Assembly: GCF_003074135.1 (NCBI RefSeq)
Contig: NZ_PPDK01000001.1
Coordinates: forward strand, 868,001 to 932,000
DNA: 64,000 bases
Direction of reading: 5' to 3'
Source of the DNA: Euzebya tangerina
GTDB taxonomy: Bacteria > Actinomycetota > Nitriliruptoria > Euzebyales > Euzebyaceae
A model generated the notes under the pieces. That model was not told where the DNA came from. It searched no databases and worked only from the letters and a program-made list of their open reading frames with translations. How positions within the stretch are numbered: the stretch's first letter is position 1; each line of letters opens with the position of its first letter. Positions 10,503 to 62,723 of this stretch are shown here, in pieces. Both the position numbers and the translations under genes were made by a program.

Positions 10503-12341
<1,839 letters not shown>

Positions 12342-12344
12342 CCC

Positions 12345-13025
12345 GTGGCCGACAACTCACCTGACAACGGCGCACCCGACGAACCCGTCGACGACGCGCC
12401 GGCTGACCCCGACGTGCTCGACATCGAGGAGGGGGGCGCCGCCACAACTGGCGCGGCCCCGCCCGACGGTGATGAGTACGACGCCGGCTCGCTTGGAGCC
12501 GTTCCCGCCGAAGAGGAGGGACCGCCGGTCGATCGCCCCGAGTTGGGCGAGGACCATGCCGGCCCCAAGCCCGAGCCCGACCCCTTGGAACAGGCCCAGG
12601 CCGAACGGGACGAACTGCGAGACCAGCTCCTCCGGGCACGCGCGGACTACGACAACCTCAACAAGCGCCGCCACAAGGAGGTGGCGGCCGCCCGAGGTCG
12701 CGGCGCAGCAGCCGTGATGGAGGGCCTGCTCGAGGTCCTCGACAACTTCGGCTTTGCGCTCCAGGCAGCTGCGAGGTCTGAGGACGCCCAACTGGCGAAG
12801 GGCGTGCAGCTGGTCCACGACCAGCTGCTCGAGGCGCTCGAGAAGGCCGGCCTCTCCGAGGTCGACGGGGTGGGATCGGTGTTCGACCCCGCGCACCACG
12901 AAGCGCTGATGAGTGAAGCCGACGGCGAGGACCGCCCGCAACCCGAGGTCGCCGAAGTCCTCCGAGTCGGCTACCGCTACCACGACCAACTGCTGCGCCC
13001 CGCGTCGGTCAAGGTCGTGGAGTGA
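12345..13025 (+). CDS. grpE: GrpE nucleotide exchange factor
   Basis: A 226-residue co-chaperone that releases ADP from DnaK. A disordered acidic N-terminus (about 1-80) precedes a long coiled-coil helix (LEQAQAERDELRDQLLRARADY) and the beta domain ending in VGYRYHDQLLRPASVKV, a standard GrpE C-terminal signature. The start is GTG at 12345, three bases after the dnaK stop, so translation is probably coupled. Confidence 0.95.
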   Translation: MADNSPDNGAPDEPVDDAPADPDVLDIEEGGAATTGAAPPDGDEYDAGSLGAVPAEEEGPPVDRPELGEDHAGPKPEPDPLEQAQAERDELRDQLLRARADYDNLNKRRHKEVAAARGRGAAAVMEGLLEVLDNFGFALQAAARSEDAQLAKGVQLVHDQLLEALEKAGLSEVDGVGSVFDPAHHEALMSEADGEDRPQPEVAEVLRVGYRYHDQLLRPASVKVVE

Positions 13026-13079
13026 CCCCCAGCATCATCGCGCTGCCGCGCGAGCATCGACACCAGAGAGGAGGACCCG

Positions 13080-14282
13080 ATGTCACAGGCTGATTGGCTC
13101 GAGAAGGACTACTACAAGATGCTCGGTGTGGCATCGGACGCCTCGGCCGACGAGATCCGAAAGGCCTACCGGAAGCTGGCCCGGGAGAATCATCCCGACG
13201 CCAACCCGGACAACCCGAAGGCAGAGGAGCGCTTCAAGGAGGTCAGTGAGGCCAACAGCGTCCTGTCGGATCCATCCAAGCGCGCCGAGTACGACCAGTT
13301 CCGCCAGTTGGCTGCCAGCGGTGGATTGGGGGGCGGCGGGTTCGGCGGCTTCCAGGGCGGCGCACCGTTCGGGGGCAGCACGCAGAACATCGATCTGAAC
13401 GACCTGCTCGGCAACATCTTCGGCGGTGGTGGCGGCAGCGCCCGCGCCTCCGCTGGTCGTGGTGGCAGGCCGACCGGCCCGCGACGCGGCAACGACGTCA
13501 AGACCGGCGTGACCCTGTCCTTCGAGGACGCCATGGCCGGAGTCACGGTCACCCTTCGGGTACGCGGCAACGCCGTCTGCTCCACCTGCTCCGGCATGGG
13601 GGCCCGCCCGGGCACCTTCCCCCACCGCTGCGACCGGTGCGGCGGCCAGGGTGTGGTCAATGACAACCAGGGCCTGTTCGCCTTCTCCCAACCCTGCCCG
13701 GTGTGTGCCGGTCGCGGGGAGGTCATCGACGACCCCTGCCCGACCTGTGCCGGCTCGGGTATCGAGCAGCGGACCCGAACCGTCAGGACCCGGCTGCCCG
13801 CCGGGGTGAGGGACGGTCAGACGGTGAAGCTGCCCGGCAAGGGCGAGCCTGGCATGTACGGCGGTCAGCCCGGGGACCTGCTGGTCGAGGTGACGGTGGC
13901 CGAGCACGACGTCTTCGTCCGCTCGGGTGACAACCTCAAGCTCAGCGTGCCGATCACCTTCGCTGAGGCCGCGCTCGGCGCCCAGATCTCGGTCCCGACC
14001 CTGGATGGCTCGGTCACCCTGAAGATCCCCGCCGGGACGGAGTCCGGACGGACCTTCCGCGTCCGTGGCCGGGGTGCCCCGAAGCGCGGGAAGGGCAAGA
14101 AGTCCGGCGGCGACCTGCTGGTCACCGTGACCATCACCGTCCCACAGAAGCTGACCAAGACCCAGAAGAAGGTCGTGGAAGACTTCGCCGCGATGGACGA
14201 CTCCGATCCGCGGGCCACGTTGAACGCGTTGTCACGCAACGGCGCGACGGCGGATGCTGCGAGCGAGGACGTGGACGTCTGA
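13080..14282 (+). CDS. dnaJ: Chaperone DnaJ (type I)
   Basis: A 400-residue Hsp40 that delivers clients to DnaK and stimulates its ATPase. The J domain carries HPD at 38-40; a Gly-rich region with FGGFQGG follows; the zinc-finger domain has all four CxxCxGxG repeats ([32 protein letters not shown]). The two C-terminal beta domains and a basic segment [13 protein letters not shown] complete it. AGAGAGGAGG precedes the ATG. The stop overlaps the hspR start by one base. Confidence 0.96.
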
Positions 14283-14692
14283 TGCGCGAACGTGCGGTGT
14301 ACATCATCTCGGTGGCTGCCGAGCTGTCCGGTGTGCACCCCCAGACGCTGCGCACCTACGAGCGGCGCGGGCTGCTGAAGCCCCACCGAACCCCCGGCGG
14401 AACCCGACGGTACTCCGCGCGTGATGTCGAGCGGGTCCAGCTGATCCAGGAGCTGACCCAGGGCGACGGCATCAACCTGGCCGGGGTTCTGCGGATCCTC
14501 GCGCTCGAGGACCGTCTGGACGAGATGCAGGACCGGCTGGCGGCCGCCCAGCAGGAGGTCGAGGACGTCAAGGCCGAGGCGCGCGCAGCAATCCGTGAGG
14601 TGCAACGCTCCCGGACCAGCGACATCGTGCTGTATCGCCGCCCGACCGACGTCGAGCGTCACCAGGGCGCCCAGCGCGGCCGTCGGCGCTGA
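14282..14692 (+). CDS. hspR: Heat-shock repressor HspR (MerR family)
   Basis: A 136-residue MerR-type regulator. The winged helix-turn-helix reads YIISVAAELSGVHPQTLRTYERRGLLKPHRTPGGTRRYS (motif parts HPQTLRTYE and GGTRRYS), typical of HspR, and a coiled-coil dimerisation helix follows (RLDEMQDRLAAAQQEVEDV). The gene is translationally coupled to dnaJ (TGATG). In Streptomyces, HspR uses DnaK as corepressor to shut off this same operon; the gene order here supports the same circuit. Confidence 0.93.
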   Translation: MRERAVYIISVAAELSGVHPQTLRTYERRGLLKPHRTPGGTRRYSARDVERVQLIQELTQGDGINLAGVLRILALEDRLDEMQDRLAAAQQEVEDVKAEARAAIREVQRSRTSDIVLYRRPTDVERHQGAQRGRRR

Positions 14693-14775: not shown

Positions 14776-15885
14776 TCATAGGGTGACGCCCTGACTGGCC
14801 AGGAAGCTGTGGGGATCCGTGGTCCCGCCCCCTGCCGGGTAGACCTCCAGGTGCAGGTGGGGACCGGTCGAGTTGCCGGTGCTGCCGCACGCAGCGATGT
14901 GCTGACCGGCCACGACGGTCTGGCCCGGTGAGACGACGAACGAGCCGTTCTGCAGGTGCAGGTAGCGGGTGCGCAAGCCCTCACCGTGGTCGACCCACAC
15001 CACATTGCCGGCGCCGCCCTCCCGGCGGGTGTGGGCTACGGTTCCGGACCCGGCTGCGACGATGGGACTGCCTGCCGGGCAGGCCAGGTCCAGACCGGCG
15101 TGGAACCTCCTGGCACCGCTGATCGGGTGGATCCGATAGCCGTAGCCGCTCGAGATCCGGACGTACTGGGGGGCCGGGTTCACCCACGCGCCACCGCCGA
15201 TCACCAACGGCTCACCGTCCAACGTCGTGGCTGCGGCCAGGTAGGTGGTCATCCACGTCAGCACCTCCTGCACGTACTCATAGGACCGGTTGTACGCGCC
15301 GACGGCCTGACGACGACCGGTGTCGGAGTCGATGGCATCACGGGCCGCCGCACAGAGGTAGGTGGCCGCCGAGAGGGCCGCGTCGAAGAAGTTGTGCGGG
15401 TCGGCCTGCCCGTTCCCGTCACCATCGCTGCCGTAGGCGGCCCAGGTGCCGGGGATGAACTGCATCGGTCCGAGTGCACGGTCGTACCCGGTGTGGCCGT
15501 CCAGCCGGCCGTCGTCGGTGTCGAGGATCGGCCGCGTGCCGGGGAGTGAGCCGTCCAGCAGAACGCCCTGGATCGGCGGCCGGACATCGCCGTCAGCTGC
15601 GGCGACCGACCCCCCGAAGCGCCCGTGGTCGGTCTCGACCTTGCCGATCCCGGCCAAGAGGGCCCACGACACCGGACAGGGCCCGCCATCGGTCTCGTCG
15701 CGTTCGGCCAGTCGTTCGGCGGCGTGAGCGTAGGCGCGCGCTGCCGTCTCGGGGATGTCCTGATGTGTCCGAACGAGCGCCGCGCCCGAGTCGGCGCCAC
15801 CCGCGGCGACGAGGACGATGAGCGCGACCACGAACACAACCGGCAGCACCGGCGCGACCAGGATGACCACCTTCCAGCCGGTCAC
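14776..15885 (-). CDS. TcpG-like bifunctional peptidoglycan hydrolase (transglycosylase plus M23 peptidase)
   Basis: About 369 residues. One N-terminal membrane helix (VVILVAPVLPVVFVVALIVLV) anchors it. A lytic-transglycosylase domain follows with the catalytic Glu in GIGKVETDHG and the GPMQFIPGTWAAYG signature. The C-terminal half is an M23/LytM endopeptidase with zinc ligands in HAGLDL and GPHLHLEV. Such two-domain enzymes (TcpG of pCW3, Orf14 of Tn916) open the cell wall for the conjugation channel. It is the last gene of the Tcp-like operon, 31 bases after the TcpH-like stop. The start is uncertain: GTG at 15885 or TTG at 15894, neither with a strong Shine-Dalgarno. Both active-site sets look intact. 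Confidence 0.85.
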   Translation of the reverse strand: MTGWKVVILVAPVLPVVFVVALIVLVAAGGADSGAALVRTHQDIPETAARAYAHAAERLAERDETDGGPCPVSWALLAGIGKVETDHGRFGGSVAAADGDVRPPIQGVLLDGSLPGTRPILDTDDGRLDGHTGYDRALGPMQFIPGTWAAYGSDGDGNGQADPHNFFDAALSAATYLCAAARDAIDSDTGRRQAVGAYNRSYEYVQEVLTWMTTYLAAATTLDGEPLVIGGGAWVNPAPQYVRISSGYGYRIHPISGARRFHAGLDLACPAGSPIVAAGSGTVAHTRREGGAGNVVWVDHGEGLRTRYLHLQNGSFVVSPGQTVVAGQHIAACGSTGNSTGPHLHLEVYPAGGGTTDPHSFLASQGVTL

Positions 15886-15916
15886 CGTGAACAACCCGCT
15901 GTCGCGGACACACCGA

Positions 15917-17746
15917 TCACGTCCCCGAGGCCTGCTCTCGCGGCTGCTGGGTGCGCCGGGACATCGCCCGCAGGCGACTGCCGCGATTGAGCGCCGTCGG
16001 TGCCAACCCCGTGCCGAGTCCCTCCAGCCCCTGCCTGACGACGGTGATGCCGGCCTTGACCGCCACCGCGCCAGCATGGACGTCGGCCGCAGTGGCGGCG
16101 GCCCTGGCCGTGCCGCGGGCGACCGCGCCGCCGACGGCAGCACCGGGACCACGACCCTGCGCCCCGACGTCGGCGCCCGGGCCGGCCACGCGTGCGGCGG
16201 TGCTCCTCGCGGCGAACCGCATCGACTTGAACACACGCCCCCGGACGATGACGAGGGCCCACGCGAGCACCAGCGCAAGCGCCATCCTGACCACGATGGG
16301 CTGACCGAACGCCCGATCCAGGACCGTCCCGACCGAGGTCAGCAGCAGAGAGAGGAAGAAGCCCGACCCCATGAAGAGGACAGCAACCTTCAGCAGGCTG
16401 TGGAACCATCGGGCGAGCAGCTCCCGGCCGGCACCGGGCGCGATGCCGGCCACGAAGGCAACGGGCATGGCGAGGATCAGCAGGACGCCGGCCACCTGCG
16501 CGATCAGCAGGGTGCCGGCGGTGAGCATCACGGCCACCCCGAACGCGGCGGTGGCCACCGCATAGGCACCCGAGGCCATGACGCGGCTGGCACTCATCCT
16601 GGCGTTGAACAGGCTCATGTTGGGGCAACCGACGTCGTTCATCCAGCGGCGCGGCTCGTCGATGTTGTCCCAGGCACGCTGCTCGACCAGTTCGCCGGCG
16701 ACCGCGCCGCAGGCACTCTCGGGATCCGGGATGGACCCCCACTGCAGCACCATGAACGGCTCGTGGACGAAGGTGTCGAAGTGGTTGTTCAGCACGTCGT
16801 CGAAGCGGCTCTGCGCCGGAACACCGCCGGCGCAGTAGTCCGACCGTGCCTGGTCGGGGTCGCCGTCGGTGCTGCCGAGCTCCATCATCCCAACGGTCAG
16901 GTCGCTCATGACGGACAGGCCGGTGCAGGCCGTGTTCTCCGCACCGTGGAGCAGGCCACCGCCGATCAGAGCAATGGACACTGCCACCAACACCTCGCCC
17001 ATGGCTGCTTGTGCTCGGTGGCGGAAGATCTGCCACCCAGCGTGTGCGATCGCTAGCAGCAGCATCAGCTCGCTGAGCGGGATGCCGGAGCGGCCACCAC
17101 GGAGCAGGTGGCCGTAGGACTGGCTGAGCGCGGACACGTCACCGCTGAGCAGGTGGGCGATGTCGAATCGCAGGACCAGTCGGAGCACCCACCCCGCAAC
17201 CGTGAACACCCAGACGCCGATCGAGAAGAAGAAGCGCGCGATGGTGACGAATGCCCGATCCACCAGGTCGACGGACGCGCCGAGTTCGTAGTGGGCGAGG
17301 TTCCGATCTGCTGGGCTGGCATGCTCGCCCAGCAGTTCGGTGACGAGGTCAACCGCGGAGAACTCTTCCTCGTCGTAGCCACGGATGTCCTCCACGACAT
17401 CTGGCACGCTGCTCGGGTCCCCCCGCTCGGGTGAGGCTCCCGACCCGAGTCCCTCGATCGGGGCGAGCACCGGCGCCTGGTCATCCGGACCCTCGTCGGC
17501 CTGGTCCACGTCATCCGGCGGCGGGGCCGGCTCGTCCAGTGGCGCCCCGACCGAAGCCGGTGGGATCTCCGACGGCGTGGGGCTCCGCACCGGCTCGGGC
17601 GTGGTGTCCGGGCGTGGCTCAGTCGGGCCGCCGGTGGCCTCGTCGGCCAGGGGTTGCGCCCCGGACATCGACGGTGACCAGACCACCGCGACGACGACCA
17701 CCAGCAGCCCTGCCCATCGGAGGCGTCTGCCCCGACCGGCCGTCAT
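15917..17746 (-). CDS. TcpH/VirB6-like polytopic channel protein
   Basis: A 609-residue membrane protein. An N-terminal signal-like helix is followed by a long Pro/Glu/Asp-rich extracellular stretch (about 30-150), then about seven to eight membrane helices (for example FFFSIGVWVFTVAGWVLRLVL and LLIAQVAGVLLILAMPVAFV) and a basic, Ala/Gly-rich cytosolic tail. The topology and position match TcpH/Orf15, the VirB6-like channel of Gram-positive conjugation systems. Two Cys pairs lie in an external loop (TACTG, YCAGG, SACGA, GCPN) and may form disulfides. ATG at 17746 overlaps the VirB4-like stop (ATGA), indicating coupling. Confidence 0.75.
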   Translation of the reverse strand: MTAGRGRRLRWAGLLVVVVAVVWSPSMSGAQPLADEATGGPTEPRPDTTPEPVRSPTPSEIPPASVGAPLDEPAPPPDDVDQADEGPDDQAPVLAPIEGLGSGASPERGDPSSVPDVVEDIRGYDEEEFSAVDLVTELLGEHASPADRNLAHYELGASVDLVDRAFVTIARFFFSIGVWVFTVAGWVLRLVLRFDIAHLLSGDVSALSQSYGHLLRGGRSGIPLSELMLLLAIAHAGWQIFRHRAQAAMGEVLVAVSIALIGGGLLHGAENTACTGLSVMSDLTVGMMELGSTDGDPDQARSDYCAGGVPAQSRFDDVLNNHFDTFVHEPFMVLQWGSIPDPESACGAVAGELVEQRAWDNIDEPRRWMNDVGCPNMSLFNARMSASRVMASGAYAVATAAFGVAVMLTAGTLLIAQVAGVLLILAMPVAFVAGIAPGAGRELLARWFHSLLKVAVLFMGSGFFLSLLLTSVGTVLDRAFGQPIVVRMALALVLAWALVIVRGRVFKSMRFAARSTAARVAGPGADVGAQGRGPGAAVGGAVARGTARAAATAADVHAGAVAVKAGITVVRQGLEGLGTGLAPTALNRGSRLRAMSRRTQQPREQASGT

Positions 17747-20127
17747 GCGGCTGCCGCCGGTGTGGTGTCCAGCGCCTCCTCGACTGCAGCGGTGGCGGCC
17801 GGCAGGACCTGGACGAGCCCGACGCGGTCCTGCACGTCGCGAAGCAGGCACTGCCCGGTCTGCAAATCGGCCGTGACCAGCCCGATCAGATCGTCGGTTG
17901 CCTCCAGGCCCAGGAAGTCCAGACCGGCGGCTGCGGCGCCGCGACTCTGCCGGAACAGCATCCGCATGCCCAGGAGGTGGCTCAGGGCATCGTCCCCGAG
18001 GTCTCCGGGGTGTTGGGAGAGCAGCCACACGGCGGCGTTGTGCTTGCGGCCGTCGCGGATCGAGTCGAGCAGGAGCTGTCGACCCTGGGGGCTGGCCGTC
18101 AACGCCCAGGCCTCATCGATCAGCGTGGCGCCGAACCGCTCGCCGTCCTCGAAGGTCAGGGTCCGCGCGACGGCGGCGACGAGGTACAGCAGCGCCTGGC
18201 CGAAGATCTGCTCGGGGAGCAACTGGCGGGCCAGGTGTTCGTGCAGCATCGCCTCGCGGTCGGGCAGCGAGAGTCCGGGCGCGTGGAAGCAGATGTAGTC
18301 GGCGTCCAGTGCCAGTGGTGGGCGATCGGCGAACACCAGCTGGGCCAACGGATGATCGGTGTAGCTCGCCAGCTTGCGGCGCAGACCGTGCGCCGCGGGC
18401 TCGTCGTCGGCTTCCAACGCACCGAGGACGTCGGCCAGCACGCCGCCCGCTGCCGCCACGCGGCGAACGGCCTGGGCCAGGACCGCTCCGTCGACGTCGG
18501 AGGGGGTGGTCCGCGTGAGCAGGGTGAGGAACCCGAGCGCCACCCGGACTCCGGTCTCGTCGCCGAACACCCGCAGTGGGTCCATGCCGACCTGGGTCTG
18601 CTCGTCCAGTCTGACCACGGCGGCGTCACCTGGAACCGCACAGGCGAGGGTGGCGTACTCGCCGGCTGAGGTCCGGTCGAGGGTCACGACTCGCCCTGCG
18701 CGGGCGATCGTCCCCAGCAGCAGGCGCTTGATGAAGTAGGACTTGCCGCTGCCCAGGGCACCGAAGATCCCCAGGGAGCCGGACCGGTTCGTCGCCGGTC
18801 CGAAGGCCGGGTCCAGCAGGACCGGCGCGGGCTGCCCGCCGGAGAGGTTCAGCCCGATCGGGATGCCCTGGGGGTCCCCGACGGCGGTCCCTGCCACCGG
18901 GACGCCGGCGGCCAGGTCGCGGGGCAGGAGGTGTTGGGTGTAGTCGCGGCAGACGGCTGGCACGGTCGAGCCGGGTAGACCGGCTTGGAACAGTGCCACC
19001 TGGCCGCCCGTGGGTCGGTGCAGGCTGTACCCCCACGGCTCCAGCAGGTCCTTCAGTCCCGCGGCCCGGGTGTCCACCTCGGCCGGCGAACGGCCCGCGA
19101 CGACGTAGGTGATCGTGACCAGCAGCTCCGGGTCACCGGGGTGAGCCACGAGGGACGCCTGTTGGTCGTCGACCCCCTCCAGCGCCGAGGCCAGCGTCCG
19201 GGGCGCTCCGGCGGGTTCCCCCTCGTACTCGGCGTACTGGGCGTTCAGCTGCCGCTGCTGGCGTCGGGCCCGGGTCTGCGCCTCGATGTTGGGTACGGCT
19301 TCCAGGCGGGCATGCCAGTCGACGTCGAATGGGGCCAGGTCCGCCATGCCGAACCACTCACCACCGCCGGGGTAGGAGAACCGAGCCGGCATCTCGGAGA
19401 CGACGAGCGCGCTCTGATAGGCCGTGCCGACGTCGGTGTCGACCCGCAGGTACCGGCGATGACGAGGGCGTCCCGGGTCCTCGGCCGTCCCGCCTTCCCA
19501 CAGCACCACATCGTCCAGGTGACGGCTGGCCGTCAGCCGCTCACGGCGGGCCAGCGGCGGTGCGTCCAGTCCGCGCAGCGCGGCTCGGCGATACAGCCAT
19601 CGGAGCTCGCCAGGACCCACCTGGTCCACGTCGATCGTCCGAGCCAATCGGCTGCCGAGGTCGGCAGCCCGCTGGGCGGCGACGCCGCGGTCGGTCTGGG
19701 GCGTCTCGGCCACCGGGATGCCGAAGGTGCCTGCGACGGCCGCGCAGGCGCTGTCGAACACCGTGCGAGCCCGGGGCCGGATGATCTGTGCCGCCAGGTA
19801 CACCCGCCGCTCGACGGGCCGCTGCTCGACCAACCTGCTCAGGGGCTGTCGTGCGTGGGTTCGCCATCGGGCGGCGGCGGCTGCGGGGACGGCGGCGGCG
19901 ACCCGCTCGGCCAGCTCCCGGGCATCAACCGGCCGCGTCACACCGATCAGTTGGGAGACCCGTGGCAGGGCGACGATGGCATCCTTGACGCGGGCGTGCA
20001 GAGCAAGCTTTCCCTCCGAGGGCAGGAAGGGATAGCTGGGCAGTTCCACACGCCACACCGCCCACACGGCCCCGTCGCGCGTCCAGATCCGGTTGCCGTC
20101 GATGTGCCGGGCCGGGGTCAGGGCCAC
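17743..20127 (-). CDS. TcpF/VirB4-like conjugation ATPase
   Basis: A 794-residue type IV secretion ATPase that would power assembly or substrate transfer at the membrane. The N-terminal ~440 residues resemble the VirB4/TraE region; Walker A GALGSGKSY has Lys462 and Walker B is LIDEAW with Asp671/Glu672, followed by RDGRKHNAAVWLLSQHP, a typical VirB4 motif. The chosen GTG at 20127 has GGAGGT five bases upstream; an open frame continues upstream but overlaps the TcpE-like gene. It sits between TcpE- and TcpH-like genes in the same order as pCW3. The catalytic residues are intact, so the system could be functional. Confidence 0.87.
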   Translation of the reverse strand: MALTPARHIDGNRIWTRDGAVWAVWRVELPSYPFLPSEGKLALHARVKDAIVALPRVSQLIGVTRPVDARELAERVAAAVPAAAAARWRTHARQPLSRLVEQRPVERRVYLAAQIIRPRARTVFDSACAAVAGTFGIPVAETPQTDRGVAAQRAADLGSRLARTIDVDQVGPGELRWLYRRAALRGLDAPPLARRERLTASRHLDDVVLWEGGTAEDPGRPRHRRYLRVDTDVGTAYQSALVVSEMPARFSYPGGGEWFGMADLAPFDVDWHARLEAVPNIEAQTRARRQQRQLNAQYAEYEGEPAGAPRTLASALEGVDDQQASLVAHPGDPELLVTITYVVAGRSPAEVDTRAAGLKDLLEPWGYSLHRPTGGQVALFQAGLPGSTVPAVCRDYTQHLLPRDLAAGVPVAGTAVGDPQGIPIGLNLSGGQPAPVLLDPAFGPATNRSGSLGIFGALGSGKSYFIKRLLLGTIARAGRVVTLDRTSAGEYATLACAVPGDAAVVRLDEQTQVGMDPLRVFGDETGVRVALGFLTLLTRTTPSDVDGAVLAQAVRRVAAAGGVLADVLGALEADDEPAAHGLRRKLASYTDHPLAQLVFADRPPLALDADYICFHAPGLSLPDREAMLHEHLARQLLPEQIFGQALLYLVAAVARTLTFEDGERFGATLIDEAWALTASPQGRQLLLDSIRDGRKHNAAVWLLSQHPGDLGDDALSHLLGMRMLFRQSRGAAAAGLDFLGLEATDDLIGLVTADLQTGQCLLRDVQDRVGLVQVLPAATAAVEEALDTTPAAAA

Positions 20128-20495
20128 AGCGCACCTCCGTCCGCCGGTCGAAGGGTGTGGGGTCGGACGGCCCGGACGGGCTGACCATCCCGCACACCTT
20201 GTCGTGGCCGTGCGGCGTAGGTCAGCAGACCGAGGGCGTAGCGCCCGGGCGACCGTCCCTCGACGCGGGCGTGCCTGACCGCCCAGGCCAGGACGAGGGG
20301 CAGGAGCATGGCCACGACCAGATCGAGTGCGCCCGGGAGGACGGCCCAGAGGTGTCGGGTGGACACCTCCAGGATCACCGTCGTGAGCAGCACGCCGACC
20401 TGGGCTGGCGTCAGTGGCGTGGGGAGTGCGTAGCCGCCGACCTTGCCGATCACCAGCGGGAATCGTCGGGCGTGGGTGTAGGTCCGGCACTCCAT
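20118..20495 (-). CDS. TcpE-like conjugation membrane protein
   Basis: A 125-residue protein with two adjacent hydrophobic segments around 30-75 (VGVLLTTVILEV and LVVAMLLPLVLAWAV) and soluble basic ends containing RTYTHARRFP and YALGLLTYAARPR. The length, double-spanning topology and position before the VirB4-like gene match TcpE/Orf17. The gene overlaps the VirB4-like start by 10 bases and begins 8 bases after the TcpD-like stop. The family call rests mainly on context and topology. Confidence 0.65.
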   Translation of the reverse strand: MECRTYTHARRFPLVIGKVGGYALPTPLTPAQVGVLLTTVILEVSTRHLWAVLPGALDLVVAMLLPLVLAWAVRHARVEGRSPGRYALGLLTYAARPRQGVRDGQPVRAVRPHTLRPADGGALWP

Positions 20496-20503
20496 CGCTC
20501 GCG

Positions 20504-20728
20504 TCACTGCACCCAGGTCTGGGCGTCGACGTCGATCTGCCCCTCGAGCAGTTCGACGTTGCCGGTGGCCCAGACGACCAATCCGGCCATGACCACGGCG
20601 GTGATGGTGGGCACCAGCGCCTTGGTCTTCCACCACACGCCGGCGACGTAGACAGAGGCGGCGACAGCTATGGCTGCCTGGATGACGGTGCCGAACTGGT
20701 TGATCATCTGACTCAGGAAGTCGATCAC
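20504..20728 (-). CDS. TcpD-like or VirB2-like small double-spanning protein
   Basis: A 74-residue protein with two membrane helices (about 14-32 and 37-54) joined by a short basic loop WWKTKA. GTG at 20728 has AAAGG eight bases upstream. In pCW3 the gene between tcpC and tcpE encodes the small membrane protein TcpD; the hairpin shape would also fit a VirB2-type pilin. Sequence alone does not separate the two. Confidence 0.6.
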   Translation of the reverse strand: MIDFLSQMINQFGTVIQAAIAVAASVYVAGVWWKTKALVPTITAVVMAGLVVWATGNVELLEGQIDVDAQTWVQ

Positions 20729-20795
20729 GGTGTTGCCTTTCGGTTGGTGGTGGAACAGTGAGCTGGCGTCGGAGGCTGCTCGGGTTCGAGCGAGC

Positions 20796-21686
20796 TCACC
20801 CCGTGCCGGGCGGGGCCTCCAGCGGCACGGCCGGGAGGACGCTGCGGACTTCGAAGTGCGTGCCGCTGCGATCCATGAGCAGGGGGAGGTGCATCACCTC
20901 GATGCGCCCGTCGGTTCCGATCGTCCGGGCCTCGACCAGGGCGATGGCCTGGGTGGGGCCGTAGGGCGAGGCAGCGATTCGCTGGACGTTCACCTCCTGC
21001 ACCGGGTGCAGGAGCGGCTCGACCTGGGCGTCGGTGGCGACGTAGCGGTCGAGCTCACCCGCCCCGCTCAGGTAGGCGCGGGCGAAGCCGCCAGCGGACT
21101 GGTGGGCCGGGTCCTGCTCGTCCGGTGGCTGCAGCGGTGGCAGGAGCGACTGGGGGTGGCTGTCGGGGGCCGGCCGGCTCACGCGCGTGGGGCGCATCTC
21201 GACCAGCGGTCCGGTGGGCGACATGGCGATGGTCACCTGGTAGGTCAGGACCACGCCGTTGTCGGCGACGCCGACGGTGACGCCCCAGCGGTCCGGCCCA
21301 GCCCGCGCGACACCGAGGGTGGCGACGTGGTCAGGCCGAGCCCGGCGTGCCGTGACGTCGGCCTCCAGGAGTTCGGTGGGGACCGACCGGTCGATCGCCG
21401 CGACGGCGAAGGCTCGCGCCGCGGGTTCGAGCCAGGGGTCGACGGTGCGCCCTGCAGTTCCGAGGTGGGCGATCACGGCGAGTTCGGCCAGTCCGGTGAC
21501 GCCGGCCGGTGGTGCGGGCGGCGCCTCCGGTGGGAGCGCAACAGGCGGTCGCAGGAGCGCCGCGGTGCCGATCAGTGGCCCGAGGACCACAACGGTCCAC
21601 AGCGCCGACGTCAGGAGCCTGACCCGAACCCGCGGCGGGATCGCGGTTCGATCCACGCCGCGGGCCGCCGCCCCCATCGTGGTCAC
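20796..21686 (-). CDS. TcpC-like (VirB8-like) conjugation scaffold protein
   Basis: A 296-residue protein with a short basic cytosolic end, one membrane helix (about 25-45) and a large outer part. The outer part shows two NTF2-like units, the second introduced by AGGFARAYLSGAGELDRYV, typical of TcpC/Orf13 proteins, which are structural relatives of VirB8. GTG at 21686 overlaps the LysM gene stop (GTGA). It would recruit the other channel parts at the membrane. Confidence 0.75.
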   Translation of the reverse strand: MTTMGAAARGVDRTAIPPRVRVRLLTSALWTVVVLGPLIGTAALLRPPVALPPEAPPAPPAGVTGLAELAVIAHLGTAGRTVDPWLEPAARAFAVAAIDRSVPTELLEADVTARRARPDHVATLGVARAGPDRWGVTVGVADNGVVLTYQVTIAMSPTGPLVEMRPTRVSRPAPDSHPQSLLPPLQPPDEQDPAHQSAGGFARAYLSGAGELDRYVATDAQVEPLLHPVQEVNVQRIAASPYGPTQAIALVEARTIGTDGRIEVMHLPLLMDRSGTHFEVRSVLPAVPLEAPPGTG

Positions 21687-22603
21687 GACGCGACCACCAC
21701 ATCAGGTGGCGGCAGGGTGAGGACCTCGCCGGGCCGGATCAGGTCCGGGTCGCCCGAGGAGACGGTCTCGGCCTCGAGGTTCGCCTCGATCAACCGCAGC
21801 CAGTAGGCGTGGACCTGGCGATCGGTGGGACGGTCCTCGCCGCCAGACAGCGCCCCACGGGCGATGACCCAGAGGTTCTCGCCGACCGCAACGGTGTGCG
21901 AGTCGACGCCGGCTGTCGGTGGTGCGGGGGCCGCGACGCCCGGGCCTCCTGCGGGCGTCGCAGACTGAACCGAGTCCGGTGGGGGTGGGCCGTGACCCGT
22001 GGAGGGCGGGACCGCCGGGGGTGCAGGAGTCGGCGTCGGGGACGCCCCGCCGGGGCCGGTCGTGTTCGGCGGGTCGACTGGATTGGGGGTCCTGACCGGG
22101 TCGACCGGGTTCGCAGTTGGGGCAGGGTCGACCGGGTTCGCAGTTGGCGCGGGGTCGACCGGGGGAGCGGTGACACCGATGGGGTCGGAGCCGATCACCG
22201 GCACCGGCGGGGATACCACCTGCTGGACCGGGACGGCCTCAGAGACCTGCGACGCCGCTGCCGCCGGGCCGGCGGCCACGGTCAGGACCAGCGTTGCCCC
22301 GACGGCGCGGTTGACCACCCGCTGGACCCATGCGGGCGCGATACCCGGCCGGGGCCCGGCCGCCCCACGATGCGAAGCCGTCCTGGCGTGGACCAGAGCC
22401 CCGACGAGGTCGACCACGGTGCCGAGGAGCAACCACCAGGTCGCCAGCCAGGCTCCGAGGTGGACCGTGGCCGTCAGCAGGTCAGCCAGTTCGACCGATC
22501 GGACCCACGTCACGGTGAGCTGCGCCCGATAGGGCAACGACAGGGAGTGGGTCAGGGCCACACCGGCGCCCTGGGCCGCAACCAACAACAGCAGTCGTGT
22601 CAT
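21683..22603 (-). CDS. Membrane protein with Pro-rich repeats and C-terminal LysM domain
   Basis: A 306-residue protein and first gene of the Tcp-like operon. Two or three N-terminal hydrophobic segments (to about 135) are followed by a Pro-rich stretch with a nine-residue repeat (NPVDPAPTA) and a C-terminal LysM-like domain (SHTVAVGENLWVIARGAL to IRPGEVLTLP) that should bind peptidoglycan. ATG at 22603 has no clear Shine-Dalgarno. This gene is not a standard part of Tn916 or pCW3 loci; it may tether the channel to the cell wall. That role is inference from the domain and the operon. Confidence 0.72.
   Translation of the reverse strand: MTRLLLLVAAQGAGVALTHSLSLPYRAQLTVTWVRSVELADLLTATVHLGAWLATWWLLLGTVVDLVGALVHARTASHRGAAGPRPGIAPAWVQRVVNRAVGATLVLTVAAGPAAAASQVSEAVPVQQVVSPPVPVIGSDPIGVTAPPVDPAPTANPVDPAPTANPVDPVRTPNPVDPPNTTGPGGASPTPTPAPPAVPPSTGHGPPPPDSVQSATPAGGPGVAAPAPPTAGVDSHTVAVGENLWVIARGALSGGEDRPTDRQVHAYWLRLIEANLEAETVSSGDPDLIRPGEVLTLPPPDVVVAS
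22098..22161. repeat. 27-bp tandem repeat encoding the Pro-rich spacer
   Basis: A 27-bp unit beginning GGGTCGACCGGGTTCGCAGT is repeated at 22098 and 22125, with a partial third copy from 22152. It is in frame with the LysM gene and encodes a nine-residue NPVDPAPTA-type repeat. Confidence 0.85.
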
Positions 22604-22618
22604 GGCTGGGCACTGTAC

Positions 22619-22636
22619 GGCCTATCAAGCTAGGCC
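22619..22636. promoter_or_regulatory. Operator-like palindrome at the predicted start site
   Basis: GGCCTA-N6-TAGGCC, a perfect 6-bp inverted repeat, overlaps the expected transcription start of the Tcp-like operon. Another GGCC lies at 22647. This is where a repressor would act; no regulator gene is adjacent. Confidence 0.42.
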
Positions 22637-22640
22637 AGCA

Positions 22641-22668
22641 AGTCTTGGCCTGTGTAAAACCATGTCAA
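22641..22668 (-). promoter_or_regulatory. Predicted promoter of the Tcp-like operon
   Basis: On the minus strand a perfect -35 TTGACA (22668-22663) is 16 bases from AAGACT (22646-22641). Transcription would start near 22634, some 30 bases before the first ATG. No other element was seen in the rest of the 22604-22877 gap apart from the palindrome at 22619-22636. Confidence 0.55.
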
Positions 22669-22877: not shown

Positions 22878-23348
22878 CTAGACGTCGATCGTTCCTCGCC
22901 CGCCCGCGTCGGGCGTGTCATCGGTCACCACGGCCTTGCCGATCTGGAATGCCTGCACCAGCTTGTTCGGTGCGGTCCAGTACTCCCAGACATCCGCGGC
23001 GAGGTGCGCCACCACGGCATCGGCCTTGCCGTTCTCGAACCATGCGGCCGTCGCCTCGTCCCATAGCTCGTCCAGCAACTCGGCGCTCTCGGAGATGGTG
23101 AGCGTCCCGGAGATCGACACCCACACGTCGTCGTCGGTCAGGCTGACGTTCGCGGCCCGTGCCCCCGACATGACCCACTCCGCACCGCTGTCCACGACGA
23201 AGACCACGTGCCCCTCGTCATCGATGTCCTGCACGGTGAGGGGCCGCGCTCGGAGTCGTCCGGTCACGTCCATGGTGGTCAGCATCGCGATCTTGACATC
23301 GTCGATCTGGTCGCGGACGTCCTGGAGGGAGAGTTGTTCGTCAGCCAT
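22878..23348 (-). CDS. Pyridoxamine 5'-phosphate oxidase-like general stress protein
   Basis: A 156-residue split-barrel flavoprotein of the general-stress-protein-26 type. It opens with a helix (LQDVRDQIDDVKIAML), then RLRARPLTVQDIDDEGHVVFVVD and a VSISGTLTI strand, and ends with EYWTAPNK, all usual for this family that binds FMN or F420-like cofactors. True substrate unknown. It stands alone, divergent from the dehydrogenase gene. Confidence 0.8.
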   Translation of the reverse strand: MADEQLSLQDVRDQIDDVKIAMLTTMDVTGRLRARPLTVQDIDDEGHVVFVVDSGAEWVMSGARAANVSLTDDDVWVSISGTLTISESAELLDELWDEATAAWFENGKADAVVAHLAADVWEYWTAPNKLVQAFQIGKAVVTDDTPDAGGRGTIDV

Positions 23349-23463
23349 GGTTCTGCCCTAGCCGAGGTGGCCGGGTCTGAATCACCACAATTCGTGCCGG
23401 GCGATGCCACGGGTAGCCTCGTCGATCCTGTCGGAGACCCACTTCCAGGAGGACACCCAGACC

Positions 23464-24327
23464 ATGGCCGGAGTAGAAGGACGAGTCGTCATCGTGACCG
23501 GGGCAGGTGGCGGGCTGGGGCGGCAGCACGCGCTGCTGCTGGCCTCCCGCGGCGCCAAGGTCGTGGTCAACGACCTGGGTGGGAAGCGGGACGGGACCGG
23601 TGCCGGCAGCCAGATGGCCGACCAGGTGGTCACCGAGATCGAGGAGGCCGGGGGAGCGGCCGCTGCCAACTACGACGACGTTGCGACGGAGGAGGGCGGA
23701 GCAGCTGTGGTCCAGACCGCGCTGGACGTCTTCGGCCAGGTCGACGGCGTGGTCAACAACGCCGGGATCCTCCGGGACGGCACCTTCCACAAGATGGAGT
23801 ACGCAGCCTGGGACGCGGTCCTCAAGGTGCACCTGTACGGGACCTACAACGTGACCCGGGCCGCGTGGCCCCACTTCCGCGAGCAGTCCTTCGGGCGGGT
23901 GGTGATGACCACATCCACGAGTGGCTTGTACGGCAACTTCGGCCAGACCAACTACGGGGCCGCCAAGCTCGGGATGGTCGGCCTGATGAACACGCTGGCC
24001 CTCGAGGGGAAGAAGTACTCGATCGGGGCGAACGCCGTGGCCCCCATCGCGGCCACCCGCATGACCGAGGACATCTTCGACGAGGCGTCGCTCGAGAAGT
24101 TCGACCCGGCGTACGTCTCGCCCCTCGTCGCCCATCTGTGCAGCGAGGAGATGACCGACAGCGGCCAGATCATCCTTGCGGGCGGCGGCAACTACGCCCG
24201 GGTCGCTTTCAGCCAGTCGGCCGGGGCGTCCTTCGAGGACATACCGACCCCGGATGCCATCGCCGAGCAGTGGGACACCATCACCGACATGGACGGTGCC
24301 AGCCTCGGGATGCCCTTCAGCGGTTGA
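23464..24327 (+). CDS. Short-chain dehydrogenase, 3-hydroxyacyl-CoA dehydrogenase-like
   Basis: A 287-residue NAD(P)-dependent oxidoreductase. Rossmann motif TGAGGGLG is at 12-19, the NNAG motif is present (VVNNAGIL), and the catalytic YGAAK follows Ser in TSTSG. The sequence (NDLGGKRDGTG, ILRDGTFHKM) resembles the dehydrogenase unit of peroxisomal multifunctional enzyme type 2, acting on (3R)-hydroxyacyl-CoA in fatty-acid breakdown. AGGAGG precedes the ATG at 23464, so an in-frame start 20 codons earlier is rejected. It is a single gene. Confidence 0.86.
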   Translation: MAGVEGRVVIVTGAGGGLGRQHALLLASRGAKVVVNDLGGKRDGTGAGSQMADQVVTEIEEAGGAAAANYDDVATEEGGAAVVQTALDVFGQVDGVVNNAGILRDGTFHKMEYAAWDAVLKVHLYGTYNVTRAAWPHFREQSFGRVVMTTSTSGLYGNFGQTNYGAAKLGMVGLMNTLALEGKKYSIGANAVAPIAATRMTEDIFDEASLEKFDPAYVSPLVAHLCSEEMTDSGQIILAGGGNYARVAFSQSAGASFEDIPTPDAIAEQWDTITDMDGASLGMPFSG

Positions 24328-24409
24328 GCCTGCAGCCACGGAGCCAGCGCCTGGTGCGTTCGCCGGATGGCCGGCGAGGTGGCCGGTCCAGTGGTCCTAG
24401 GATCCCCGT

Positions 24410-25165
24410 ATGACCGAGCCGACCGACGAGCTGTACAGCACCGACGCCTACCTGCGGACCTTCGAGGCCACGGTGGTCGCGGTGGACACCGATGCCCACC
24501 GCGTGGCGCTCGACCGCTCGGCGTTCTACCCCGGCGGCGGTGGCCAGCCCGCGGATCGTGGCCTACTGGCGGTGGACGGCGGCGCCGACGGGATGCTCTC
24601 GTTGGACGTCACCAAGGTCGGCAAGACCAAGGCGCTCGTCTGGCACGAGTTGGCCGACGGAACACCGCTGCCCGACCCGGGCACGCCGGTGGAGGGGACG
24701 CTCGACTGGGAGCGCCGGCACCAGCTCATGCGGACCCACACCGCCCTGCACATCCTCTGCGGCGTGATCTGGGCCGACTTCGGTGTGGCCGTCACCGGTG
24801 GGAACATGGAGCCCCTCAAGGGTCGGCTGGACTTCGAGCTCGACGCCATGTCTGCAGAACTCGGCCAGCAGGCGCAGCGGCGGATCAACGAGGAGATCGA
24901 GCGGGCCCGCGAGATCATGGTCGACTTCATCTCACGAGCTGAGGCCGATGATGACCCGGCGCTGATCCGCACCAAGGCCAACCTCATCCCAGCCTTCATC
25001 GACCCCCTCCGCGTCATCGACATCGCCGGTCTGGACCGGCAGGCCGACGGCGGCACCCACGTTGCCACCACGGCGGAGGTGGGTCGGGTGGAGGTCACCA
25101 AGACCGAGTCGAAGGGCAAGGCCAACAAGCGCATCCGCCTGGTGGTCAACGACGCGGCCACGTAG
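24410..25165 (+). CDS. Alanyl-tRNA editing protein (AlaX-like)
   Basis: A 251-residue stand-alone editing factor that removes serine or glycine from mischarged tRNA-Ala. It contains the N-terminal barrel (SAFYPGGGGQPADRG) and the editing domain with zinc motif HTALH. The second zinc motif reads DGGTH where alanyl-tRNA synthetases have CGGTH, so one Cys ligand is replaced by Asp. The product is of the medium AlaX size and lacks the synthetase core. It follows the dehydrogenase by 82 bases. Confidence 0.86.
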   Translation: MTEPTDELYSTDAYLRTFEATVVAVDTDAHRVALDRSAFYPGGGGQPADRGLLAVDGGADGMLSLDVTKVGKTKALVWHELADGTPLPDPGTPVEGTLDWERRHQLMRTHTALHILCGVIWADFGVAVTGGNMEPLKGRLDFELDAMSAELGQQAQRRINEEIERAREIMVDFISRAEADDDPALIRTKANLIPAFIDPLRVIDIAGLDRQADGGTHVATTAEVGRVEVTKTESKGKANKRIRLVVNDAAT

Positions 25166-60913: not shown

Positions 60914-61304
60914 GGGTGACCTCGAACATCGAGTGGGGTCTCGCAGCCGGGAACGTGACCGTCCCGCGCGAGGGTGAAGTTGGTGCGGCGCGTGCGCTGA
61001 ACTGGTGGTCATAACTGGTGGCCGGGCACTCGTCGTCAGGGTTCGGAACCCGTGGTGCGGCCTCACGCGCGAATCACAAGGGTACCGACCCCCCTCTGGT
61101 GGCGTCAACCACGACCAATCGGCCCTTGTTGGCCCTCCTGGCCTGTGCCAGACTCGCATGCCTTGTCACGTCGTTCCCCGTTGGTCCTGGCGACGGCGAC
61201 AGTCCGTTACCGGCACCTCCAGCAGCCAGGACCATCGTGATGGTCACCGAACACCCCTACGGGCAGCGGCCGCCTGCCTTCACACCGCCACAGGACCCAA
61301 CCTC
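60914..61304. other. Divergent rpmH-dnaA intergenic region
   Basis: These 391 bases must hold the promoters of rpmH and dnaA. I could not find a convincing -35/-10 pair for either, nor perfect DnaA boxes. A minus-strand TTATGA (61016-61011) is a weak -10 candidate for rpmH. Confidence 0.5.
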
Positions 61305-62723
61305 TTGACCGATCTCAACCCCTCCGATCTCGACGACGCGTGGAAGGTTGCGGTCCAGACCCTGTCATCCAGTGTGTCCAGTGCCGCCCAACTGACCTGG
61401 CTCGACGACACCCAGCCGGTGGGGCTCTCGGACGGCATCTTCGTCCTCTCGGCGCCCAACCCGTTCGCCCAGGAGCAGATGAAGCGGCGCTTCAGCGATG
61501 ACCTCGTCAACGCCCTGTCCGGAGCCGTCGGCCAACCGGTCCAGGTGCTGATCACTGCGCGGGCCGATGACACCCCGGCGGAGACGATCAGTGCCCCCGT
61601 CCCACTGGACGACCCGCCGGAGATGCGGTTGGTGGAGAACAAGCCCTCGCCCTCTCCGACGTCGACGGTCACGTCGAACTCGCTGGCCGAGGCCAACCTC
61701 TCAGACAAGTACGTCTTCGACCGATTCGTGATCGGACCGGGCAACCGGTTTGCTCACGCGGCGGCCTTCGCGGTCGCCGAGGCGCCGGCCAAGGCCTACA
61801 ACCCGCTGTTCATCTACGGCGACTCGGGGCTCGGTAAGACCCACCTGCTCCAAGCCATCGGTCACTACATCGGCCGGCTCTACCCGCGGACCAAGATCAC
61901 CTACGTCACCAGTGAGCAGTTCACGTCGGAGTTCATCGAAGGCGTGCGGCGCGGCCAGCAGGCCCAGTTCCAGCGGCGCTACCGCGACGTCGACATCCTG
62001 CTGATCGACGACATCCAGTTCCTGGAGAAGGCCGAGCGGACCCAGGAGGAGTTCTTCCACACCTTCAACGCCCTGCACCACGCCGAGAAGCAGATCGTCC
62101 TCACCTCCGACCGCCCACCGCGGCAGCTCGAGCGCCTGGAGGCGCGACTCGTCACCCGCTTCGAGATGGGTCTGCTCACCGATGTGCAGCCACCCGACCT
62201 CGAGACACGACTCGCCATCCTCCGGCGCAAGGCGGACATCGATGACGTCGCGGTGCCAGGCGACGTGCTGGAACTGATCGCGGGGCGCATCTCGACCAAC
62301 ATCCGGGAGTTGGAGGGGGCGCTCATCAGGGTGATCGCCGCTGCCAGTCTGTCCAAGCAGCCGGTGACCATGAGCCTGGCGGAGACGGCACTCAAAGACG
62401 TCTTCCCCGAGGCCCGGACCGGCGACATCACCGCCGAGCTGATCATCGACGAGACCGCCACCTACTTCAACCTCACGCCCGAGGAGCTGTGCTCCAAGAA
62501 GCGAACCCGCTCTCTGGTCAACGCGCGACAGATCGCCATGTACCTCACCAGGGAGCTGACGGAGCTGTCCCTGCCGAAGATCGGTGAGGCCTTCGGAGGT
62601 CGTGACCACACCACCGTCATGCACGCGAACAAGAAGATCACGAAGCTGATCAAGGAACGGGCCGCCACGTTCGAGCAGATCCAGGATCTGACCAGTCACA
62701 TCAAGCTGCGTGCCCGGGGTTGA
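61305..62723 (+). CDS. dnaA: Replication initiator DnaA
   Basis: A 472-residue AAA+ initiator. N-terminal DnaB/helper domain I (to about 85), variable linker, then AAA+ domain III with Walker A GDSGLGKTH (172-180) and Walker B LLIDDIQF (Asp235-Asp236), and domain IV with the box-binding motif GGRDHTTVMHA. The start is TTG at 61305 with AGGA nine bases upstream; an open frame continues upstream but is not protein-like. It is followed by the origin and dnaN. Confidence 0.96.
   Translation: MTDLNPSDLDDAWKVAVQTLSSSVSSAAQLTWLDDTQPVGLSDGIFVLSAPNPFAQEQMKRRFSDDLVNALSGAVGQPVQVLITARADDTPAETISAPVPLDDPPEMRLVENKPSPSPTSTVTSNSLAEANLSDKYVFDRFVIGPGNRFAHAAAFAVAEAPAKAYNPLFIYGDSGLGKTHLLQAIGHYIGRLYPRTKITYVTSEQFTSEFIEGVRRGQQAQFQRRYRDVDILLIDDIQFLEKAERTQEEFFHTFNALHHAEKQIVLTSDRPPRQLERLEARLVTRFEMGLLTDVQPPDLETRLAILRRKADIDDVAVPGDVLELIAGRISTNIRELEGALIRVIAAASLSKQPVTMSLAETALKDVFPEARTGDITAELIIDETATYFNLTPEELCSKKRTRSLVNARQIAMYLTRELTELSLPKIGEAFGGRDHTTVMHANKKITKLIKERAATFEQIQDLTSHIKLRARG

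Follow-up and report, generated by a model that had tools for sequence, protein, structure and literature searches.

The closest described counterparts of the locus reported here are the Tcp (MPF_FA) type IV secretion systems (T4SSs) of pCW3 and Tn916, which share with it equivalents of TcpC, TcpE, TcpF/VirB4 and TcpG and a probable equivalent of TcpH, and in which tcpE directly precedes virB4. In PMC6137059 and its references, TcpA, TcpD and TcpE are called essential for transfer of pCW3. According to a 2025 review, the known functions of Gram-positive T4SSs are nearly all DNA translocation, and dedicated effector translocators in Gram-positives are a long-standing question (PMC12857230). The VirD4-less T4SSs in that review are Gram-negative; Ptl, Brucella VirB, ComB and Bartonella Trw resemble our locus in being core T4SSs that function without a coupling protein, but they differ in their diderm envelopes and VirB9/VirB10-type outer parts. 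T4SSs with a VirB4 cluster but no relaxase were described as a class, the MOBless T4SSs, in 2011 (PMC3158045). Co-option of Gram-positive T4SSs has been reported for the monoderm Patescibacteria, whose chromosomal systems mostly lack a relaxase and in some cases lie near dnaA (PMC12102498), though these are of the MPF_FATA type, many have VirB2-like pilins, and VirD4 homologues are common in those genomes. It is also suggested by cmdABCDEF (SCO4126-4131) of Streptomyces, a chromosomal VirB4-like membrane cluster that affects sporulation and chromosome segregation, not secretion (PMC2782261).

The window analysed here, a 64,000-nucleotide stretch from the chromosome of the marine actinobacterium Euzebya tangerina (G000:C1:868001-932000), carries an operon which in contrast to pCW3 and Tn916 is chromosomal in four species, with no TcpA found and no relaxase nearby. 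What is new is a T4SS of the Tcp type, without a coupling protein and close to the replication origin, in Actinomycetota; no paper on a Euzebya T4SS was found in one open-access library. As Euzebya includes cultured species, a Tcp system that is truly fixed, constrained and coupling-less would make the effector-translocator question directly testable by gene deletion.

Gene content and setting of the operon

Positions 14776-22603 are filled by seven minus-strand ORFs, all confirmed and packed with overlaps or near-contact, as an earlier sequence-only reading had described. The likely starts were corrected to 20127 (VirB4), 20495 (TcpE), 17746 (TcpH) and approximately 15894 (hydrolase).

22612..22661, minus strand: candidate leaderless promoter, with TACAGT (-10-like) at 22612-22617 and GGTTTTACAC at 22652-22661
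21683..22603, minus strand: LysM-like protein, the operon's first gene; its N-terminal part is hydrophobic, and a long Pro-rich linker leads to a LysM-like domain at the C-terminus
20796..21686, minus strand: TcpC/VirB8-like protein; one TM helix and two NTF2-like domains (PF12642 passed by relatives; predicted fold)
20504..20728, minus strand: TcpD-like protein of 74 aa with two TM helices, assigned from position and size
20118..20495, minus strand: TcpE/VirB3-like protein (PF12648)
17743..20127, minus strand: VirB4/TcpF ATPase of 794 aa (profiles; Walker motifs intact)
15917..17746, minus strand: TcpH/VirB6-like polytopic protein with a Pro-rich N-part (NF046089)
14776..15894, minus strand: TcpG/VirB1-like hydrolase; N-terminal TM, SLT_2 lytic transglycosylase, M23 endopeptidase
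10503..14692, plus strand: left flank, dnaK-grpE-dnaJ-hspR, in convergent orientation to the operon
22878..25165, strand unspecified: right flank, PNPOx-like gene, SDR and AlaX-like gene; SDR and AlaX are retained on this flank in each of the four Euzebya

Profile searches bore out the identities proposed for TcpE (PF12648, 37.6 bits against a cut-off of 29.9), for both hydrolase domains (M23 at 100.6 bits and SLT_2 at 29.1 bits, each above its cut-off) and for VirB4, which matched AAA_10 at E=1e-55 and NF052333 (ATPase_TcpF) at E=4e-49, the latter under the curated cut-off. TcpH, which has six hydrophobic stretches, matched NF046089 (CD3337/EF1877) with E=5e-12 and 45 bits, far under the cut-off of 120, and its relatives matched the same profile. 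TcpC was reached by way of its relatives and fold: the window's own protein had no Pfam match, its orthologues in genomes G010, G213 and G004 passed PF12642, and its AlphaFold model (mean pLDDT 71.6) had as its top match 3ub1, by its annotation an NTF2-like protein of plasmid conjugation, with both NTF2 domains covered (Foldseek 4e-7; VIA Z 11.9 over 188 residues), followed by the VirB8-like OrfG of ICESt3.

Two of the original calls came out softer. The 74-aa protein, conserved in the eight genomes compared and without a significant Pfam family, is named TcpD-like from its position, its size and its two TM helices. A relationship to DUF6112 was rejected, the proteins being unrelated, and one to TrbC/VirB2 was not convincing. 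The LysM assignment is marginal, with the Pfam LysM profile matching a single orthologue at 16.8 bits, below the cut-off of 20.9; in the model of this protein the N-part is helical and the linker has a pLDDT <50. The ATPase and hydrolase motifs are intact, as first read, with Walker A/B and RDGRKHNA invariant in six genomes and the SLT glutamate and M23 zinc-site pattern retained in all four Euzebya. With its TcpF-type VirB4, a tcpE gene directly preceding virB4, an NTF2-type TcpC and a wall hydrolase, the Euzebya operon has these hallmarks of MPF_FA systems.

The operon does sit between hspR and housekeeping genes, as had been claimed, with dnaK-grpE-dnaJ-hspR on one side and the PNPOx/SDR/AlaX genes on the other. 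The window spans the replication-origin region, with dnaA (61005-62723) approximately 38 kb from the operon and parAB, gidB and a YidC-family gene in between, a location that recalls the T4SSs near the origin in some Patescibacteria. Codon usage of the operon's larger genes is within the host range.

Upstream regions in Euzebya have a -10-like hexamer 7-10 nt ahead of the start codon and an upstream GGTTTT element. Comparison of four such regions by eye gives weak grounds for regarding 22612-22661 as a possible leaderless promoter, comparable elements being present in the other Euzebya. Control through a HAIR (HspR) site was discarded as an explanation for the operon, as the one match had three mismatches, was located elsewhere, and approximately one is expected by chance.

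Conservation in Euzebya and occurrence beyond the genus

The genus was sampled with four genomes, some of them draft (G000-G003, where G000 is the window's genome and G003 is Euzebya pacifica, its second contig matching NZ_CP031166 at 100%). All four carry the same seven genes in the same order beside the SDR gene, so that neither absence from close relatives nor the patchiness or variable location typical of integrative elements was encountered. On the operon's other side, hspR is present in three; in the fourth stretch (L014) no dnaJ or hspR match was found within 9 kb. VirB4 of the window is 66-69% identical to its counterparts in the other Euzebya, compared to 74-77% for the SDR, and this divergence is as expected of vertical descent. 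TcpC, TcpH and the LysM-like protein evolve fast (38-53% identity in the same comparison). For the closest pair, G002/G003, Nei-Gojobori dN/dS was 0.05 for tcpD, 0.08 for tcpE, 0.11 for virB4, 0.21 for the hydrolase and 0.25-0.31 for TcpC, TcpH and LysM, next to 0.055 for the neighbouring SDR; wider pairs were near saturation. For this pair, the ratios are strongly indicative of purifying selection on the operon genes. A decaying, functionless remnant of an integrated element is accordingly very improbable: the mobility genes are missing and several components diverge fast, as decay would have it, but all seven genes are open in four species, dN/dS of the closest pair is low, and catalytic motifs and gene order are kept.

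Of 396 genomes of the phylum scanned, 40 had a match of some kind, roughly half of these being weak and partial; an alignment query found matches where a single-protein query gave none. In G004, a genome from the family of Euzebya, the order TcpC-TcpD-TcpE-VirB4-TcpH-M23 is flanked by a YibE/F gene on one side and a pfkB gene on the other. In the distant family f40, G125 and G213 have LysM-TcpC-TcpD-TcpE-VirB4-TcpH in common next to lgt and ferredoxin genes; in G213 the contig breaks off inside tcpH, and in G125 a phosphate-type transporter follows the operon. The neighbours are housekeeping genes in G004 and f40 alike. The f40 loci (L101:5651-13516 and L100:54-7492) thus represent two genera with the operon fixed beside lgt/ferredoxin, and no hydrolase gene was found after TcpH in L101. 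LysM and the hydrolase differ from one lineage to another and so do not count among the universal parts of the system.

Other relatives look mobile. In G010 the gene set is accompanied by a tyrosine integrase next to tRNA-Met, as well as by a Replic_Relax protein and a VirD4-like ATPase; no att repeat of at least 15 bp was found in the stretches compared. In this ICE-like element (L017:6217-7374) the first zinc-site His of the M23 domain is replaced by Tyr, though the element looks intact. Coupling ATPase and relaxation genes also lie by the clusters of G357, Streptacidiphilus and a Kitasatospora plasmid (NZ_CP108405), and a coupling ATPase lies by those of G158 and G188, which belong to one genus. 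The ICE-like and plasmid relatives (G010, G357, Streptacidiphilus, Kitasatospora) share the core gene set with Euzebya, their VirB4 being ~33-49% identical, but differ in having a replication-relaxation gene along with a coupling ATPase resembling VirD4, to which G010 adds the integrase. No close plasmid relative was found, the best being ~35% identical. In the VirB4 tree, Euzebya and G004, the latter on a long branch, group with support of 96/99. All seven coupling-less rows also group together, with support of 36/32 only, which is compatible with one domestication or with several.

Coupling and mobility genes

Among the scanned window ORFs (mostly of at least ~250 aa), no recombinase, relaxase or coupling gene was recognised, the relaxase searches covering the MOBF and MOBP types but not TcpM, MobT and MOBV. 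There are no tRNA genes in the window and no direct repeats of at least 18 bp bracketing the operon. The absence of mobility genes and att-like repeats reported by the sequence-only reading thus held, and no relaxase, coupling protein and integrase with att sites turned up near the operon. With no coupling ATPase of its own, no relaxase alongside and no integrase with an att/tRNA boundary recognised, the locus looks like neither a conjugative system nor an ICE; as a VirB4 cluster without a recognised relaxase, it falls among the MOBless T4SSs.

Genome-wide, a profile of the mobile relatives' coupling ATPase (A2) and PF13814 (Replic_Relax) were both undetectable in G000-G004, G125 and G213, which are all seven of the chromosomally embedded cases. 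Both were present in G010, G357, G394, G158 and G132, the A2 match in G394 being weaker and located elsewhere; G039 was negative for both, yet an ATPase of its own adjoins its cluster. A coupling gene of the G010 P0008 type, relocated elsewhere in Euzebya, was not detected. The FtsK/TcpA profile PF01580 matched a single 847-aa protein in G000, which is read as the chromosomal FtsK, and likewise one protein in G001. In G002 and G003, the FtsK/SpoIIIE profile had further matches in multi-ATPase proteins of 1556-1561 aa, read as type VII EccC, plus weaker ones.

In the genome as a whole, neither TcpA nor PF13814 was found, but it does encode MOBF relaxases and one VirD4. MOBF (TrwC) relaxases are plentiful in Euzebya, the TrwC gene nearest to the operon being 106 kb off, and G000 also has one weak MOBP fragment. 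VirD4 (PF02534) had one match each in G000, G001 and G003, two in G002 and none in G004 or G010. The VirD4 of G000 lies 77 kb from the operon, inside a separate second T4SS (L029:1120-11206, G000:C1 ~797-807 kb) that comprises M23, DUF6112, SCO6881/TrbL, SCO6880, VirB4 and VirD4. This second system is present in all four Euzebya (L030, L031 and L032 in the others), is related to the Streptomyces SCO6878-6881 cluster, and in G000, G001 and G003 lies 14-30 kb from TrwC relaxase genes.

Proposed role of the operon

Of the modules of a Tcp system, the operon retains those for the translocon and the wall, but not the one for substrate coupling. Its domestication, as proposed by the sequence-only reading, is highly probable, the same site in four of four Euzebya and the absence of mobility and coupling genes supporting it well; as a "secretion machine" the operon is putative. 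Fixation, constraint and the loss of exactly the DNA-loading parts point to co-option. The explanation that we favour is a chromosomally fixed Tcp/Tn916-type (MPF_FA-like) T4SS that descends from conjugative elements and that Euzebya has co-opted; taken as a whole, with the mechanism set out below, we give it even odds. A somewhat bolder generalisation, which we would place just short of even, is that it belongs to a recurrent, selected, non-conjugative class of Gram-positive T4SS, a coupling-less Tcp type fixed at three sites in at least two actinobacterial families, in which TcpC-TcpD-TcpE-VirB4-TcpH was kept and the coupling ATPase and relaxation protein were lost.

Conjugation by the operon alone is unlikely, since TcpA, TcpD and TcpE are reported to be essential in pCW3. 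As no coupling ATPase was recognised that could load a relaxase-DNA complex, substrates would most likely arrive without VirD4. By analogy with the VirD4-less Gram-negative systems, we tentatively suggest that VirB4 drives a two-step export or an envelope task. TcpE and TcpH would form the membrane channel, powered by VirB4, and TcpC would take it through the wall, with the SLT-M23 protein opening the peptidoglycan locally and the LysM-like protein serving as a wall anchor or wall sensor. Candidate substrates may be proteins that reach the machine through Sec/Tat, in a two-step route like that of Ptl, or the machinery might act in envelope assembly, rather than on conjugative DNA.

An envelope or cell-cycle complex like Streptomyces CmdA-F is an unlikely alternative, but one that has an actinobacterial precedent (PMC2782261) and fits the LysM and wall-hydrolase genes as well as the origin-proximal position near parAB, yidC and dnaA. 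The Cmd proteins, however, resemble the SCO6880/SCO6881 type, and hence the second T4SS of Euzebya rather than the Tcp type. Less probable still is a split conjugation system, in which VirD4 and MOBF relaxases from elsewhere serve the channel in trans and DNA is still moved. All four Euzebya have VirD4, the genus has many TrwC relaxases, and coupling genes can be distant from virB4 in Patescibacteria (PMC12102498), but the Euzebya VirD4 lies in an operon with its own VirB4, SCO6880, SCO6881/TrbL, DUF6112 and M23, and G004 keeps the Tcp-type operon with no VirD4 or TrwC match at all. A ComB-like DNA-uptake machine for natural transformation ranks slightly lower again: H. pylori ComB is also VirD4-less and runs on VirB4 alone (PMC12857230), but it acts across an outer membrane, and the loci compared, in a search that did not extend to ComEC, show no linkage of the operon to a competence gene.

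VirB4 relatives were also seen in other settings. The 571-kb plasmid of E. pacifica (NZ_CP031166; L022:9696-12167) encodes a very distant VirB4-like ATPase with a weak match, and a 52-kb IMG/VR contig (L125), which is probably not a phage but an integrative element, encodes a VirB4 that is 41% identical to that of the window.
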